DNA of 55,496 nt from an uncultured Clostridia bacterium (GTDB lineage Bacteria; Bacillota; Clostridia; Christensenellales; Borkfalkiaceae): positions 1 through 55,496 of the forward strand of contig CALWCH010000009.1 in NCBI GenBank assembly GCA_944376335.1, written 5' to 3'. Position numbers and translations under genes: made by a program. The notes under the pieces were generated by a model. That model saw only the letters and a list, made by a program, of their open reading frames with translations, made no database searches and was not told where the DNA came from. Shown piece by piece: positions 2,884-25,482 of this stretch (positions within the stretch are counted from its first letter, which is position 1; each line of letters opens with the position of its first letter).

Positions 2884-2888
2884 CACGG

Positions 2889-2917
2889 TTGACAAACCAG
2901 CCATTTGGTGATAAACT
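2889..2917 (+). promoter_or_regulatory. Promoter of the antisense-like RNA, module copy 1
   Basis: TTGACA at 2889-2894, a 17-base spacer, and TAAACT at 2912-2917. The sequence around it is shared with copy 2 at 19860-19888. Confidence 0.7.
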
Positions 2918-2923
2918 AAAGGA

Positions 2924-3015
2924 GCAACAGAGGGATACCGTTCAGCGGTTAGCCTCGGCCGTTATTTAAAATAACCGTCACCTCGAGCTACCAACTAAAG
3001 GGCGGTTATTTTTTT
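2924..3015 (+). ncRNA. Predicted small RNA converging on the 34-residue ORF, copy 1
   Basis: The predicted transcript is about 92 nt and has no open frame. It starts about 7 nt after the -10 box. The 5' part folds as GAGG-ACCG-loop-CGGT-CCTC (2930-2956). It ends in a hairpin (2969-2979 with 3001-3011) followed by seven T. That terminator overlaps the 3' end of the minus-strand peptide gene and also works as a terminator on that strand. The pattern suggests an antisense regulator; this is inference. Confidence 0.55.
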
Positions 3016-3110
3016 ATGCGAATGATGATCATTGTCTTAGTGACTGTGACCGAAGAGAGAAGGCCTTTCTTCTTCAAAATGCGAAGAAGAAGGATCAGCT
3101 CCTTTTTCAT
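3006..3110 (-). CDS. 34-residue Lys/Ile-rich peptide, toxin-like, copy 1
   Basis: ATG at 3110 on the minus strand lies just behind a near-perfect AAGGAGGTGAT ribosome site. The peptide begins MKKELILLLRILKKKG and ends TMIIIRIKK; it is strongly basic and amphipathic, with no clean membrane span. The stop codon lies inside the stem of the shared terminator. The frame differs from copy 2 by one synonymous base. Unlike copy 2, I see no TTGACA/TATAAT promoter upstream: the sequence that would hold it has been replaced by a dispersed repeat starting near 3187, so this copy may be silent. The family is unknown to me. Confidence 0.5.
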   Translation of the reverse strand: MKKELILLLRILKKKGLLSSVTVTKTMIIIRIKK

Positions 3111-3186
3111 TAGCATCACCTCCTTGTCGGGAAATTTTCATTCCCCCCTTATCAAGGAGGCGAACCGCCTACGGCACCTCTGATGA

Positions 3187-3322
3187 TTTCTTTCGCGAAA
3201 ATCTTTTACTTCGTAAAATCTTTCCGCGAGGGGTGAACCATCAACAGCTCTTTACCCCGTCGCCCGCGCACCCTATTGTTCTCAAAGACAATAAGCCCGA
3301 AGTGTCGGGCAAATTGGGTCCT
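3187..3322 (+). repeat. Dispersed structured repeat, copy a
   Basis: This unit of about 130 bp recurs at 19291-19420 (+) and 20487-20625 (-). It starts with hairpin CGCGAAAATCTTTTA ... TAAAATCTTTCCGCG, then AGGGGTGA, a variable middle, then AATAAGCCCGAAGTGTCGGGC with hairpin CCCGA/TCGGG, then CAAATTGGG. Sequence downstream to about 3385 (AAGCGTGGTTTTGCTTG...) matches the inverted partial copy at 19508-19590. No credible protein is encoded. Confidence 0.7.
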
Positions 3323-4714: not shown

Positions 4715-4972
4715 TAGATAACGCGAAGAAGCGGAGCAGTAACCTCTTTTTCTTTCTTTCAGAGAGCCGCCGTTGGGTGCGAGGCGGCAGAAGGGGAGGG
4801 GCGAACTCACCGCCGAGCGGTCCGCCCGAACAGGCAGTAAGGCGGAACGGCTTCCCCCGTTATAGGGAGAGGATATGGTTGTATCCCGTAAGCGGCGGGT
4901 ATTTTCCCGCAATAAGAGTGGTACCGCGCGAATTCCGCGTCTCTTGCACAAGAGGCGCGGCTTATTTTTTAT
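4715..4972 (+). promoter_or_regulatory. T-box riboswitch, leucine-type
   Basis: The leader has the standard T-box landmarks: GAAGCGGAGCAGTAACC near the 5' end, AGAGAGCCGCCG in stem I, and the T-box AATAAGAGTGGTACCGCG at 4911-4928. A terminator follows (CCGCGTCTCTT/AAGAGGCGCGG plus T-run, 4935-4970). The candidate specifier is CTC (Leu) at 4806-4808 in GGCGAACTCACCGCC, which agrees with leuA downstream. Uncharged tRNA-Leu would stabilise the antiterminator and switch on leucine synthesis. Confidence 0.92.
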
Positions 4973-19290: not shown

Positions 19291-19420
19291 CACGAATTTC
19301 TTTTGCTGCGCAAAATAAGTTCCGTGAGGGGTGAGCTTTATGCATCCAAATAACAATTCGCCCGCGAACTTTTCTGTCATTCTAAGAACAATAAGCCCGA
19401 AGTATCGGGCAAATTGGGGC
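19291..19420 (+). repeat. Dispersed structured repeat, copy b
   Basis: It shares the plan of copy a: hairpin TTCACGAATTTCTTTTG-CTG-CGCAAAATAAGTTCCGTGA, then GGGGTGAGC, then AACAATAAGCCCGAAGTATCGGGC and CAAATTGGG. The first stem sequence differs from copy a but still pairs. Confidence 0.7.
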
Positions 19421-19462
19421 GCGCAGCGCAGGGCAACCCTGCTCGCGCAATTAAAGTTAAAA

Positions 19463-19501
19463 CGTCCGTTTGATAGACGGACGTTCTTGTTTTAATTTTT
19501 C
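19463..19501. terminator. Terminator-like hairpin in the repeat island
   Basis: AACGTCCGT/ACGGACGTT with a 7-base loop, outer TTAAAAC/GTTTTAA pairing and a T-rich tail. It probably ends the smc-ftsY transcript. Confidence 0.6.
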
Positions 19502-19507
19502 AGCTCG

Positions 19508-19590
19508 TCAACCGAGTGGCGCTTCCTGAAATAATGCCGCGAGCAAAACCACGCTTTTGCGGAGCGGCACCCAATTTGCCTTATGCTTAA
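19508..19590 (-). repeat. Dispersed structured repeat, partial copy d (inverted)
   Basis: The reverse complement contains GCCTTAAGCATAAGGC in place of GCCCGAAGTATCGGGC, followed by CAAATTGGGT and AAGCGTGGTTTTGCTCG as in copy a. Both stem halves have changed together, so pairing is kept. Confidence 0.65.
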
Positions 19591-19650
19591 GGCTTCTGCA
19601 GAAAGGTAAGATGGCGCGCATTCTAATTGTTGCTATCCGCGCGCCATCAG

Positions 19651-19720
19651 GTCGAGCAAGGGCGTTCTTAAAACAGCACGGTGTGCTGTTTTCCCCTTGC
19701 GAGATGAGCGAGCGCATTTT
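19651..19720 (+). repeat. Left arm of a 70-bp inverted repeat flanking module copy 2
   Basis: It matches the reverse complement of 20295-20365 (GAGCAAGGGCGTTCTTAAAA, CCCCTTGCGAGATGAGCGAG). Inside it is the hairpin AAAACAGCAC-GGT-GTGCTGTTTT. Confidence 0.65.
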
Positions 19721-19859
19721 CCCGCGCGAGCGGTGCCCGAAAACGGCGTTTCCCTTGCGCCGTTTGAGACGAGCAACGGCCAAGCGCAGCGCGCCCGTGG
19801 GTTTTCCTCCAATCACGACTTTTTTCCGCGTCAGTTCGCGGAAAAAAGTGTGAACATGG

Positions 19860-19888
19860 TTGACAAATCAAGCATTTGGTGATAAACT
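19860..19888 (+). promoter_or_regulatory. Promoter of the antisense-like RNA, module copy 2
   Basis: TTGACA at 19860-19865, 17 bases, TAAACT at 19883-19888. It is preceded by a perfect 12-bp hairpin (CTTTTTTCCGCG/CGCGGAAAAAAG, 19819-19848). Confidence 0.75.
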
Positions 19889-19894
19889 AAAAGG

Positions 19895-19987
19895 GCAACA
19901 GAGGGATACCGCAAAGCGGTCAGCCTTAGTTTAAGTTAAAAAATAACCGCCACGTCAAGCTACCAACTTTAGGGCGGTTATTTTTTT
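19895..19987 (+). ncRNA. Predicted small RNA converging on the 34-residue ORF, copy 2
   Basis: Its 5' hairpin is GAGG-ACCG-CAAAG-CGGT-CCTT (19901-19927). Compared with copy 1 the loop has changed completely but the stem is kept. It terminates at the perfect 11-bp stem AAATAACCGCC/GGCGGTTATTT (19941-19951 with 19973-19983) plus a T-run. An A-run on the other side makes the same stem a terminator for the minus-strand transcript. The terminator loops of the two RNAs are complementary by construction. Confidence 0.6.
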
Positions 19988-20082
19988 ATGCGAATGATGA
20001 TCATTGTCTTGGTGACTGTGACCGAAGAGAGAAGGCCTTTCTTCTTCAAAATGCGAAGAAGAAGGATCAGCTCCTTTTTCAT
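19978..20082 (-). CDS. 34-residue Lys/Ile-rich peptide, toxin-like, copy 2
   Basis: This copy is complete. The promoter TTGACG-17-TATAAT lies at 20196-20168 on the minus strand, the 5' leader is about 80 nt with hairpins, AAGGAGGTGAT precedes ATG 20082, and the stop TAA (19978-19980) is buried in the terminator stem. The peptide (MKKELILLLRILKKKG ... TMIIIRIKK) has 9 Lys and 2 Arg out of 34 residues and alternates basic and aliphatic residues. Size, basic tail, strong ribosome site and a converging RNA all resemble type I toxin loci such as Fst/par, but the sequence is not one I recognise, and toxicity is inference. Confidence 0.6.
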   Translation of the reverse strand: MKKELILLLRILKKKGLLSSVTVTKTMIIIRIKK

Positions 20083-20167
20083 TAGCATCACCTCCTTGTC
20101 GGGAAATTTTCATTCCCCCCTTATCAAGGAGGCTAACCGCCTGCGACACCTCTGTTGCTTGATACGC

Positions 20168-20196
20168 ATTATATCATGATTTGAGCAATGCGTCAA
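20168..20196 (-). promoter_or_regulatory. Promoter of the 34-residue peptide mRNA, copy 2
   Basis: On the minus strand TTGACG (20196-20191), 17 bases, TATAAT (20173-20168). It is one of the best promoters in the window; copy 1 lacks the equivalent. Confidence 0.8.
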
Positions 20197-20294
20197 ATCA
20201 TTTCGCAAAAAAATGTGTAAACTTTGTCGCGGAAAGATTTGGTCTCAAACGGCGTAAGGAGAACGCCGTTTTCGGTCACCGCTCGCGCTTTGCG

Positions 20295-20365
20295 AATGCG
20301 CTCGCTCATCTCGCAAGGGGAAAACAGCACACCGTGCTGTTTTAAGAACACCCTTGCTCGTCCTT
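20295..20365 (-). repeat. Right arm of the inverted repeat flanking module copy 2
   Basis: Reverse complement of 19651-19720, with the AACAGCAC/GTGCTGTT hairpin retained. Confidence 0.65.
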
Positions 20366-20408
20366 TGCAAAAAGATTTTCGCGAATTTCTTTCCGCGTCA
20401 GTTCGCGG

Positions 20409-20430
20409 AAAAAAGAGTGCACTCTTTTTT
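20409..20430. repeat. 22-base perfect palindrome
   Basis: AAAAAAGAGTG/CACTCTTTTTT without a loop; read on either strand it resembles a short terminator or a binding site. It sits just after a second occurrence of TTCCGCGTCAGTTCGCGGAA. Confidence 0.5.
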
Positions 20431-20486
20431 GGGGTGGGCGGGCGGGAATTATAAATTATGCTTCGAGGAGGGTTCCCCTCCGCTGA

Positions 20487-20625
20487 AGGACCCAATTTGC
20501 CCGATATTTCGGGCTTAGTGTTTTTGAGAACAAAAACGTGCGTGGGCGATAAGGCTGTGATATGAATTGACCCCACCCCTCGCGGAAAGATTTTTTCGGA
20601 ACGAAAAAAGATTTTCGCGAAACCC
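20487..20625 (-). repeat. Dispersed structured repeat, copy c (inverted)
   Basis: The reverse complement reads TTTCGCGAAAATC...CTTTCCGCGAGGGGTG, a variable middle with CGCCCACGCAC, then TTCTCAAAAACACTAAGC, CCGAAATATCGGGC and CAAATTGGGTCC, parallel to copy a. Confidence 0.7.
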
Positions 20626-20644
20626 TTCTGTCAAGTAAAAACAC

Positions 20645-20673
20645 TTGACAGCTGCATTTCCATCTGCTATAAT
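20645..20673 (+). promoter_or_regulatory. Consensus promoter of ylxM-ffh-rpsP-khpA
   Basis: TTGACA at 20645-20650, 17 bases, TATAAT at 20668-20673. Confidence 0.85.
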
Positions 20674-20696
20674 TGCAAAGTCAGGAGGGGCGCAAT

Positions 20697-21032
20697 ATGG
20701 ATCTCACCATTTCCCGTCTCATCGACGTCTACGGCTCCCTTCTCACCGAACACAAGCGGGAAGTCGCCAAACTTTACTACCACTTCGACCTCTCCCTCCA
20801 AGAGATCGCCGAGGAGAAGGGCTGTTCGCGTCAGAGCATCTCCGATACGCTCTCTTCGGTGCGCGAAAAGCTTCTTTACTTCGAATCGTCGCTGCATCTT
20901 CTCGAACTTCTCAACGAGCGCGCAAGGGAGCGCGAGGCGCTTCTGGAATTCTCCAAGGCACTCCCCGGGGAGCAGCGCGCCGCTCTTCTACACATCCTCG
21001 GCGAGCCGTCCGAGGCTCAAGCCGGACAATAA
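20697..21032 (+). CDS. ylxM: YlxM-like SRP-associated helix-turn-helix protein
   Basis: 111 residues from ATG 20697 with AGGAGGGG upstream. It begins ISRLIDVYGSLLTEHKREVAKLYY, followed by a sigma-70 region 4-like helix-turn-helix (LSLQEIAEEKGCSRQSISDTLSSVREKLLYFE), the UPF0122/YlxM pattern. YlxM sits upstream of ffh in most Firmicutes and stimulates the SRP GTPase cycle in streptococci. The C-terminus is helical and charged. The ffh start is 10 bases downstream. Confidence 0.92.
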   Translation: MDLTISRLIDVYGSLLTEHKREVAKLYYHFDLSLQEIAEEKGCSRQSISDTLSSVREKLLYFESSLHLLELLNERAREREALLEFSKALPGEQRAALLHILGEPSEAQAGQ

Positions 21033-23206: not shown

Positions 23207-23340
23207 TTTAACCAAATAAGAGTCGGCAGGCACCTGCCTGTCTGCTCCGTTTCTTGATTCGTGCGGACGATCGGGCGGCTGCCCAGGGGAGGCGGACGGC
23301 CGTCCGAGAGCATCCTCGCAAAACGAACAAAGGAGGGACT

Positions 23341-25482
23341 ATGTCAGAAGAAGAAAGAAAACCCGGGGAGATCCCCCAACCGGTTCCCGAAGAAGAACAC
23401 ATCGATGACCCCGCTTCCGTGACCGAAGTGCCCGAAGAAGCAGCGGAAGTGCCCGCAGAGGCACCCGTAGAAGAACCTGCAGAAGAACCTGCAGAAGAAC
23501 CTGCAGAAGAACCTGCAGAAGAACCTGCAGAAGAACTTGCAGAAGAGCCTGCAGAAGAGCCCGCAGTGCAGCAAGAGGCGCCCAAGCCGGCACCCGCACC
23601 CGCGGCAGAGGCAGACATCGAAGAGGACCCGCCCGAAGAGGACGACAAAAAGAGAAAGATGGTCATCGGCGTCAGCATCGTCGCTGCCATCGTCGCCATC
23701 TTCATCATCGTGCTGCTCTGCGTCATCGGCTCCTGCTCGCACCGCCATACGATGAGCTACGTCGATGAAGTCGCCTCCACCTGCGAAACGGCAGGCGTCG
23801 CCGCGCACTGGAACTGCTCCGAGTGCGGCAAAAACTATGCCGACGAAGCGGGCGCCGAAGAGCTCACCGACCTTGCCCTTCCCCTCGCCGCGCACACGCT
23901 CACGCATACCGATGAGGTCGCGTCCACCTGCGAAACGGCGGGCACCGACGAGTATTGGCACTGCACCGTCTGCGGGAAGAACTTCGCCGACGAGGCTTGC
24001 ACCGAGGAAGTCATGAGCCTTTCCGATCTCACCCTTCCCCTCGCCGCGCACACGCTCACGCACACCAACGAGGTCGCCTCCACCTGCGAAACGGCAGGCA
24101 CCGCCGAATATTGGCACTGCACCGTCTGCGAGAAGGACTTCGCCGACGAGGCATGCACCGAAGAACTCCACGACCTCTCCCTTCCCCTCGCCGCGCACAC
24201 CTTTGCCGAGGACGAATACGTCGCTCCCACCTGCGAAGCGACCGGTCTCTCCGCAGGCACGCACTGCTCCGTCTGCAACGAAGTCTTTGCCGCGCAGGAG
24301 ACCATCCCCGCGCTCGGCCATGCCCTTCCCGAAGAGGGCTTTACGATCACGGAGGTGCCCACCTGCACCGTGGGCGGCAGCGGAACGTATGAGTGCGCGC
24401 GCTGTCACGAGGTCATTCCAACGCCCGTCGAGCCGCTCGGCCATGCCGAAACGCAGCTTCAGGGGAAGGAACCCACCTGTGAGGATGAGGGCTACTACGG
24501 CGAGGTCATCTGCACCCGCTGCGGCGAGACGGTGAGGGACCGCATCGTGCGCCCCGCGCTCAACCACGACTATGTCCTTTCGGAGAACAACTGCGATCCC
24601 ACCTGCATCCAGGCAGGTCTTGAGGGGCAGATGATCTGCACGCGCTGCAATAAGATCGACCCCGACCATCCCGGCACCGTCATCCCCGCACTCGGCCACG
24701 AAAAGCCCGCGGACGACAGCCTGATCGAACGGGTAGAGCCCACCTGCACGACGGACGGCTCCGAGACCTACGTCTGCACCCGCTGCGACGTTACCCACAC
24801 GGATATCCTTACGCTGCTCGGCCACGACCCCGTCCCGGAGGGCAACGACGAGGCGACCTGCACCGCCGCCGGGCTCGAGGGCAGAACGGTCTGCACCCGC
24901 TGCCAGGAAGTGCAGAACGAGGGCACCGTCATCGCGCCCCTCGGCCACACCGTCTCCAACAACGTATGCGCCGTCTGCAATACGCCTGCAAGCACGGGCT
25001 TTACCTTCGCGCTCAACAGCGATCGTCAGAGCTACATGCTCGTCAATATCGGCACCTGCACGGACACCGATATCATCATCCCCGATACCTACACCGATGA
25101 ATTGAACGGCCTCGGCGCCCTGCCCGTCACGAGCATCGCCAACATGGCGTTCTTCGGCGCAAGCAGCGTCGTCTCCATCAGCATCCCTTATTCCGTCACG
25201 AGTGTCGGCACCATGGCATTCATGAACTGCACGAGCCTTGCAAACGTCAAGTTCGGCGCAGCCGTCACCTCCATCGGTTCGGGAGCATTCATGGGCTGTG
25301 AAAACCTCACGTCCGTCCGCTTTGCAGGCGACGCGGAGGGCTGGAGCGTCTCCAACGTCGTCGGTGCGGCAGGCACCCCCGTCGACAGCGCACAGCTTTC
25401 CGACCCCGCACAGGCAGCCGTCCTCTTCAAGGAGACCTACCTGCAGTACGACTGGACGAAGAGCCCCGCCACCGTCGGCTGA
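23341..25482 (+). CDS. Membrane-anchored protein with EPAE tandem repeat, Cys-pair repeats and a BspA-type LRR
   Basis: 713 residues from ATG 23341 (AAGGAGGG upstream). The order is: an acidic Pro/Glu/Ala segment (1-100) with about eight EPAE units; a KKRK stop-transfer edge; one membrane span (about 104-128, VIGVSIVAAIVAIFIIVLLCVIGSC); then roughly a dozen repeats built on TCETAGTxxYWHCTVCGKNF or TCTxxGLEGxxVCTRC, each with paired cysteines (about 130-560); then a short BspA-like leucine-rich repeat (ITSIGSGAFMGCENLTSVRF type, about 590-670). Without a signal peptide, the acidic part should face the cytoplasm and the cysteine repeats the outside. Such Cys-pair/LRR_5 proteins are common on gut Clostridia; ligand unknown. 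Confidence 0.8.
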   Translation: MSEEERKPGEIPQPVPEEEHIDDPASVTEVPEEAAEVPAEAPVEEPAEEPAEEPAEEPAEEPAEELAEEPAEEPAVQQEAPKPAPAPAAEADIEEDPPEEDDKKRKMVIGVSIVAAIVAIFIIVLLCVIGSCSHRHTMSYVDEVASTCETAGVAAHWNCSECGKNYADEAGAEELTDLALPLAAHTLTHTDEVASTCETAGTDEYWHCTVCGKNFADEACTEEVMSLSDLTLPLAAHTLTHTNEVASTCETAGTAEYWHCTVCEKDFADEACTEELHDLSLPLAAHTFAEDEYVAPTCEATGLSAGTHCSVCNEVFAAQETIPALGHALPEEGFTITEVPTCTVGGSGTYECARCHEVIPTPVEPLGHAETQLQGKEPTCEDEGYYGEVICTRCGETVRDRIVRPALNHDYVLSENNCDPTCIQAGLEGQMICTRCNKIDPDHPGTVIPALGHEKPADDSLIERVEPTCTTDGSETYVCTRCDVTHTDILTLLGHDPVPEGNDEATCTAAGLEGRTVCTRCQEVQNEGTVIAPLGHTVSNNVCAVCNTPASTGFTFALNSDRQSYMLVNIGTCTDTDIIIPDTYTDELNGLGALPVTSIANMAFFGASSVVSISIPYSVTSVGTMAFMNCTSLANVKFGAAVTSIGSGAFMGCENLTSVRFAGDAEGWSVSNVVGAAGTPVDSAQLSDPAQAAVLFKETYLQYDWTKSPATVG
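23473..23566 (+). repeat. 12-bp coding minisatellite (EPAE units)
   Basis: About eight head-to-tail copies of GAACCTGCAGAA, the first five identical and the last ones drifting (GAACTTGCAGAA, GAGCCTGCAGAA, GAGCCCGCAG). Near-identity at the DNA level suggests recent slippage; changes are multiples of 12 and keep the frame. Confidence 0.85.

Follow-up and report, generated by a model that had tools for sequence, protein, structure and literature searches.

We analyzed a 55,496-nt stretch of DNA from an uncultured Clostridia bacterium (contig CALWCH010000009.1 of assembly GCA_944376335.1, hereafter referred to as the window) and conclude that its locus at 19860-20196 is very probably a chromosomal type I toxin-antitoxin-like module, in which a peptide mRNA and a small antisense RNA are predicted to converge on a shared terminator. 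The RNA architecture of the module and the selection acting on it are shown by comparison of related loci. Judged from these sequences, the module family is genuine, conserved, and chromosomal, lies outside the libraries searched, and encodes an unusual peptide.

Module layout and recurrence

Base-by-base inspection confirmed the minus-strand TATAAT promoter, the Shine-Dalgarno site, and the 34-residue open reading frame (ORF) described in an earlier note on this DNA, as well as the placement of the stop codon (TAA, 19978-19980) within the terminator stem. The plus-strand TTGACA promoter is also present, as that note had claimed, ahead of an RNA of ~92 nt ending at the same stem; we predict a length of 92-97 nt, with an assumed start at 19893-19895 and an end at 19986-19989. 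Promoter hexamers were scored as matches to consensus out of 12 positions, and a scan of 19400-20700 returned three sites, compared to 0.9 +/- 1.1 in shuffled sequences; the third promoter-like site lies at 20645, ahead of ylxM. The ORF encodes MKKELILLLRILKKKGLLSSVTVTKTMIIIRIKK, a peptide of 34 residues with a net charge of +9. Related antisense RNAs were searched for with R1, a covariance model 91 positions long that was derived from 42 antisense RNAs. The features of the locus are collected in Table 1.

Table 1. Features of the module at 19860-20196 and of the second copy in the window
Feature	Position	Strand	Details
Peptide mRNA promoter	20196..20168	-	TTGACG-17-TATAAT; 11/12 consensus positions
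Antisense RNA promoter	19860..19888	+	TTGACA-17-TAAACT; 10/12 consensus positions
Peptide mRNA 5′ leader	20083..20161	-	start assumed
Leader pairing	arm 20125-20133 with arm 20090-20098	-	predicted fold, burying the Shine-Dalgarno site
Leader segment GCGGTTAGCCTCC	20128..20140	-	cis strand opposing the ribosome-binding site (anti-RBS strand)
Shine-Dalgarno region AAGGAGGTGAT	20087..20097	-	
34-residue peptide ORF (presumed toxin)	19978..20082	-	ATG 20080-20082, TAA 19978-19980
Shared bidirectional terminator	19938..19986	both	perfect 14-bp stem 19938-19951/19973-19986, 21-base loop
Antisense RNA (presumed antitoxin)	19895..19986	+	R1 match 19895-19989, 87.8 bits (the locus itself is among the sequences used to build R1)
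Antisense RNA segment GCGGTCAGCCTT	19916..19927	+	near-copy of the leader anti-RBS strand; potential trans pairing with the ribosome site
Second module copy	2887..3188		peptide ORF 3006-3110 (-), antisense RNA 2924-3017 (+)

The earlier reading of a convergent type I-like module with a shared terminator is supported by comparison with other genomes: both promoters, the folded leader, the reading frame, and the terminator are found again in different species. Among the 49 distinct loci found through the peptide, an antisense promoter (a TTGAC-type box, 16-18 bases, and a TAnnnT-like box) was recognized by pattern in 43 and by eye in four more (L011, L031, L050, and L052), for a total of 47/49; the two unscored loci are L044, where the contig ends and the frame runs on, and L076, which looks decayed on both sides. 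A peptide promoter with at least 9 of 12 consensus positions is found in 44/47 loci. In most loci the antisense RNA body starts with GCAACAGAGG or ACAACAAGGG, followed by an ACCG...GCGGTYAGCC-like stretch and then the terminator. The consensus fold of the antisense RNA consists of the terminator stem alone (nine pairs, three with double changes), and a 5′ hairpin in the fold of the window antisense RNA is absent from it.

The source assembly (1.75 Mb in 44 contigs, 86% complete) holds seven copies of the 345-bp unit at 72-100% identity, on contigs C6, C8, C9 (two, both in the window), C10, C12, and C18. All seven carry the 34-codon frame, in four peptide variants: four copies are identical, one encodes MKKEHILILLALKEMGIISSITVTKTMVIIRIKK, and two encode MDLFILYLLQLLVEEG(F/I)VISFRVTKDKIYLIIKK. 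The second copy in the window, with the identical peptide and an intact antisense RNA, has lost its peptide promoter and is thus half-dead. By reading of the frames, the genes around the six other copies look ordinarily chromosomal. The window locus is flanked by two inverted copies of a ~120-bp dispersed repeat (19649-19770 and 20242-20364); when 241 bases of the right flank were used as a query, the genome gave 33 matches.

These observations invite the question of whether the unit is a short mobile repeat, akin to a miniature inverted-repeat transposable element, whose promoters and ORF are mere by-products of its inverted ends. The ends are indeed similar in inverted orientation, both RNAs beginning GCAACAGAGG...GCGGTYAGCC; seven copies are dispersed in the genome; dispersed repeats flank the window copy; and the stretches around ylxM in 13 genus relatives lack a module (nothing with the antisense model at E<=0.1 in 1.8-3.3 kb each, L180 and L183 being shorter and seven loci from other genera left out). 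We nevertheless consider this origin very improbable, as it is strained by the purifying selection on the frame and the matching base changes in the leader described below, and 25 of the 33 flanking-repeat matches lie >1 kb from any module copy.

Selection on the peptide and its leader

A profile of the peptide matched 5/61 genus genomes at E<1e-9 and 9/61 at E<=0.1, 4 of these 9 being weak matches counted only in the latter tally (genus and family counts, and all R1 counts below, include the source genome). In the family, 30/301 genomes matched at E<=1e-5 and 55 at E<=0.1, of which 25 are likewise weak (best E >1e-5). At the level of the order, 7/297 genomes matched at E<=1e-3, and only G465, with two loci, is convincing beyond the family; G533 was set aside for an internal stop (E 4e-4). 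Named carriers include Candidatus Gallimonas merdae and gallistercoris. A hit in Ca. Gallimonas merdae (L066) coincides in contig number, position, and strand with one in G015, from the genus of the source genome, so that the window very probably derives from that genus of the class Clostridia. We also considered a phage or plasmid origin of the module and rejected it: 33 and 57 viral-contig stretches fitted a search pattern, none of which was confirmed as a relative. A tblastn search of one peptide variant against phages and plasmids gave no match.

Codon comparison argues that the peptide itself is maintained. For 38 frames of 34 codons, we compared synonymous (pS) and nonsynonymous (pN) differences over codons 2-28, excluding the part that overlaps the terminator, in 107 pairs differing by 2-30%. 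Mean pS was 0.44 and mean pN 0.15, with pN below pS in 104/107 pairs. The pN/pS ratio of the peptide frame, 0.34, is the lowest of the six; the remaining forward frames gave 0.79 and 1.51 and those of the opposite strand 0.86, 0.46, and 1.97. By this measure, purifying selection acts on the frame of the peptide.

We extracted 47 leaders for folding, one of them without a site by the pattern used. When each leader was folded singly, pairing of the Shine-Dalgarno bases had P >0.5 in 46/46 leaders and P >0.8 in 39; the mean pairing of 0.86 compares with 0.55 after the upstream part is shuffled, and pairing exceeds this control in 47/47. Base 4 of the site, tallied in 44 distinct leaders, lies opposite U in 16 of 17 cases when it is A, and opposite C in 24 of 27 (U in the other 3) when it is G, a count biased towards pairing because partners were taken from minimum-energy folds. 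Within a single genome, the leader arm changes along with the site between copies 1 and 3, which encode identical peptides. Comparison of the predicted structures shows a leader that hides the ribosome site in a recurrent, covarying fold. By eye, we also looked at an upstream reading frame common to the leaders and discarded it, since it is not preserved between loci. The leader hairpin often has an apical loop resembling UGAUGAG after a run of G, in the manner of a small start site (e.g., L029, L033, and L041).

Loss of parts follows one direction. R1 yielded 122 matches, of which 95 were kept after removal by hand of repeats, terminator-only matches, and matches on the other strand, leaving 94 distinct loci, some of which also belong to the sets discussed above. 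An antisense promoter was recognized in 85/94. By pattern-based labels, 63 of the 94 have leader and frame, 15 have one of these, 15 have neither, and one lies at a contig edge; several loci labeled "partial" seem complete by eye, and at least L171 and L132, labeled "intact," are mis-picked frames. In 12 of the 15 loci where neither leader nor framed peptide was recognized (12/94), five of them in the family of the window, the RNA and its promoter are kept (L162, among these 12, still has a frame without a leader). A stump of the last peptide codons remains beside the lone antisense RNA at L137, L140, L151, and L166. Lone antisense RNAs with a promoter were noticed at L137, L138, L140, L151, L155, and L166. 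The converse, a clear peptide-only locus, was found in 0/49 of the loci found through the peptide, two of which could not be evaluated.

The earlier note had held that a disrupted frame beside an intact RNA would refute a role for the peptide. Such loci do occur, in the 12/94 cases above, yet the intact frames are under purifying selection, and we therefore read the antisense-only loci as decayed toxin sides. Such one-way decay is what a toxin-antitoxin pair should show, with a peptide harmful to cells lacking the antisense RNA. An element of two regulatory RNAs in which the peptide is irrelevant would account for the persistence of the antisense RNA where the ORF is gone, for the well-conserved structure, and for the fairly low pN/pS in one reverse frame (0.46). 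It fits poorly with a ratio in the peptide frame below that of all others (0.34 versus 0.46-1.97) and with the recurrence of a terminator-ending ORF in dissimilar sequences, and we give it hardly any credence.

In 28 aligned peptides, M1, L9, and I32 are invariant and S20, V23, T24, K25, K33, and K34 nearly so. The description of the peptide as basic holds for the window peptide and its subtype best, since the net charge among 39 related peptides ranges from +1 to +9. In these 39 window-type peptides, the best 17-residue hydropathy averages 1.62; from reading of the sequences and simple moments, the peptide reads like a helix plus strand. Searches of Pfam and NCBIfam gave no match for three peptide variants each, nor did PADLOC and PHROGs for two variants each, and a search of the PDB returned a single chance-level match (E 0.022), a designed cage going by its name. 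At the RNA level, Rfam 15 has no match at the locus at gathering score, the best sub-threshold match having E 0.47 and 24.5 bits compared to a gathering score of 54, and among the window locus and eight others only a neighboring tRNA passes. Within the libraries searched, the suggestion of an undescribed family therefore stands; none of the literature matches listed describes it, although coverage is thin for subscription journals, which limits the word "undescribed."

Predicted pairing between the antisense RNA and the message

As the earlier note observed, the loops of the two RNAs are complementary, and they are fully so; this follows inevitably from a hairpin common to both. These loops differ between most paralogs, so each antisense RNA should recognize its own message: mean identity among the copies of the source genome is 62% in the terminator loop, compared to 89% in the antisense 5′ domain. 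Loop duplexes of the seven copies average -42.5 kcal/mol for cognate and -15.2 for non-cognate pairs (strongest non-cognate -34.7), and the four copies of G034 give -44.3 and -15.4. From these energies, copies 1, 2, and 5 may cross-react and the others should not.

A second contact may be made by the antisense segment GCGGTYAGCC(C/T), which resembles the leader anti-RBS strand and could therefore close the ribosome site in trans. The segment carries CCC in 25/28 loci with GGGGG sites compared to 5/18 with GGAGG sites (Fisher p 3e-5), and the Shine-Dalgarno type agrees with the segment in 6/7 copies of the source genome. Across 46 loci of the window subfamily, the segment pairs better with its sites than with shuffled ones (-11.8 vs -8.0). 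Judging by the predicted pairing, we consider trans closure of the site likely in this subfamily.

In the scheme that we infer for transcription, repression, and toxicity, the minus-strand promoter would give an mRNA of ~220 nt whose leader pairs GCCTCCTTG with CAAGGAGGT, hiding the ribosome site; when and how this fold opens would be a further, presumed step. The plus-strand promoter would give the 92-97 nt RNA, terminating at the same hairpin. The complementary and diverging loops would then make contact, and the antisense 5′ part would probably act in trans as well to shut the ribosome site, with support from covariation in the window subfamily and weak support otherwise. Should the antisense RNA run short, the peptide would be made and would most likely halt growth, acting at a membrane face or on an internal target.

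Several results weigh against this picture. The linker is as variable between copies of the source genome as the loop (65% and 62% identity), so loop divergence may be drift. RNA-RNA interaction prediction, which the earlier note had suggested, supports cognate specificity for the loops and not for the rest: with whole molecules minus the terminator, RNAduplex gives -28.25 for cognate and -28.24 for non-cognate pairs, the cognate being better in 18/42. The covariation between site and segment (25:3 vs 5:13) is uncorrected for relatedness of the loci, and the segment duplex barely favors own pairs (-11.9) over foreign ones (-11.3). The segment gains little over shuffled sites in 27 class-level loci (-8.1 vs -7.2) and in loci of the Hol_Tox family treated below (-9.3 vs -7.9; 6/12 with a usable segment), and class-level RNAs pair equally well with sites of the window subfamily as with their own. 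Because the terminator stays closed in the predicted fold, no 5′-3′ pairing between GGCGGTTA and TAACCGCC is expected from it. Finally, 0/39 window-type peptides have at least 12 consecutive uncharged residues, and the peptide is thus no classical membrane-spanning toxin.

Related loci with other peptides and comparison with known systems

A covariance search of Clostridia genomes, of the kind that the earlier note had suggested, found matches to the antisense RNA well beyond the range of the peptide. R1 matched 34/151 family genomes at E<=0.01, 56/291 class genomes in 38/180 genera at E<=1e-3, and 12/249 phylum genomes. Among the 29 loci of the class search (L108-L136), with labels taken directly or via the same place in L156-L176, the main match is intact in 22 and partial in 6, and one is a duplicate.

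Most of the class-level loci inspected encode different, more hydrophobic peptides, mostly of 20-40 residues, such as MDLEYIITFMILVIIIIISIKK at L110. For 33 peptides outside the family, taken with no hydropathy cut, the best 17-residue hydropathy averages 2.56 compared to 1.62 in the window type; at least 12 consecutive uncharged residues occur in 30/33 and at least 15 in 20/33. A separate set of 30 hydrophobic peptides (mean 2.67, 21/30) is an unfair comparison, having been picked by a hydropathy cut. A few hydrophobic peptides are also found within the family (L089, L091, and L093). Many loci with other peptides have an GGCGGTTAGCC-like leader strand, their stop codon lies at the terminator, and the Shine-Dalgarno site is paired in 32/32 of their leaders, from loci chosen by a hydropathy cut. 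Ten such peptides matched no Pfam or NCBIfam family above cut-off. In G751, a five-fold tandem array (L156 1-2201, C1:2361900-2364100) carries short hydrophobic peptides of the MEYVYIIIFMIVFITLIESIKK type, with modules ~336-405 bp apart.

Another peptide type occurs closer to the window. G029, from the same genus, has eight R1 matches and no match to the peptide profile; of the seven loci fetched, four encode MNGFDLFLLIALLSEALEHFDIEYIAIKRTKK or relatives, a third peptide type, and three have lost the peptide gene. We also noticed this third type at L139, L141-L143, L145, and L152-L154, with 32-38 residues and a helix-like start followed by (D/H/N/G)IEY(I/L)..K; it occurs in the family of the window, and L139-L143 lie in its genus.

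We tentatively propose, with more doubt than confidence, a class-wide, undescribed type I RNA chassis that would keep the leader, antisense RNA, and two-way terminator while exchanging the peptide. By the same proposal, most of the Clostridia loci inspected would hold short membrane-spanning peptides and the family of the window soluble-looking helix-plus-strand types, and the family types SFRVTKDKIY and the dissimilar EYIAVKIAKK, the latter with relatives also in the genus of the window, would act on an internal target rather than by spanning the membrane. If so, these would be, to our knowledge, the first type I toxins of soluble-looking helix-plus-strand build.

We also weighed a small regulatory or structural protein, non-toxic and held down by the leader fold and the antisense RNA, with multiple copies serving dosage or diversity. 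In its favor, the peptide lacks a membrane span and resembles a helix plus strand, the SFRVTKDKIY core shared by one subgroup (11 peptides selected for it) suggests a specific partner, and toxicity does not follow from a type I layout. This alternative appears unlikely, as the same RNA frame holds short hydrophobic peptides elsewhere in the class, another peptide type sits in G029 within the same genus, presence is patchy (5/61 genus genomes at E<1e-9), and the antisense RNA outlives loss of the ORF. If the module is instead a toxin-antitoxin system, as we favor, many gut Clostridia hold several copies of an unannotated family missed by the libraries searched, and R1 allows loci to be found via the antidote RNA rather than the fast-changing peptide. 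With different peptides occurring naturally on a common RNA frame, the build required of a type I toxin would also become directly testable.

The likeness to Fst/par loci drawn in the earlier note extends to the layout, the terminator, and the Shine-Dalgarno stem-loop, and not to the peptide. In the portions of PMC7472228 available, par/Fst loci have convergent promoters, a two-way terminator, loop contact, and a stem-loop over the Shine-Dalgarno site. The window module shares the convergent promoters, bidirectional terminator, complementary loops, and 5′ stem-loop hiding the Shine-Dalgarno site, a peptide of 33-34 residues, and the coexistence within a cell of related loci whose RNAs do not necessarily cross-protect (PMC7472228, same portions). 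Unlike Fst, the PxxxG(C) motif is found in 0/39 window-type peptides, which excludes membership in Fst/Ldr, and none has 15 consecutive uncharged residues or a hydrophobic span. The repeats of the window module are also inverted at the ends, because both RNAs start with similar sequence, and the equivalent of the par/Fst direct repeat, the ribosome site against the antisense segment, is imperfect. By reading, the toxin-terminator loop in the window holds UUGG as a candidate YUNR U-turn and copies 4 and 7 have no obvious one; this motif is described as not universal in par/Fst loci in the available part of PMC7472228.

A parallel in layout is also provided by Hol_Tox (PF16935), which matched 20/148 class genomes at E<=0.01, 12 of them above cut-off. 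Read by eye, the Clostridia loci of this family (13 with a frame: L209-L217, L219, L224, L229, and L230) appear to follow this convergent layout too, with an GGTTGCCAC-like leader strand in many, a stop in or beside a two-way hairpin, and a promoter-like sequence on the opposite strand. R1 matches lie at the corresponding place in 5/17 Hol_Tox loci at E<=0.01, with low scores of up to 32.9 bits. Hol_Tox peptides are hydrophobic and the window peptide type is not; PF16935 matched none of three window peptide variants and nothing in genome G000. The shared plan suggests that clostridial Hol_Tox genes are type I toxins, in which case genes annotated as "putative holin-like toxin" in Clostridia may be the toxins of antisense-RNA modules.

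Type I modules of Clostridioides difficile, such as CD2517.1-RCd8, have convergent, overlapping toxin and antisense genes, and their toxins are described, in the part of PMC6563280 available, as 34-59 residues long with a transmembrane domain and a charged C-terminus, mostly in prophage regions. Compared by this description only, they share the convergent overlap and small peptide with the window module, whose peptide, unlike these toxins, lacks a membrane span.

Elsewhere in the window, a T-box leader at 4717-4947 is the sole Rfam match at gathering score (145.9 bits). By reading, a long ORF at 23254-25482 contains repeats of a CETAGxxxYWHCTVCGKxFADEACTEE-like cysteine module and, after these, sequence resembling leucine-rich repeats.
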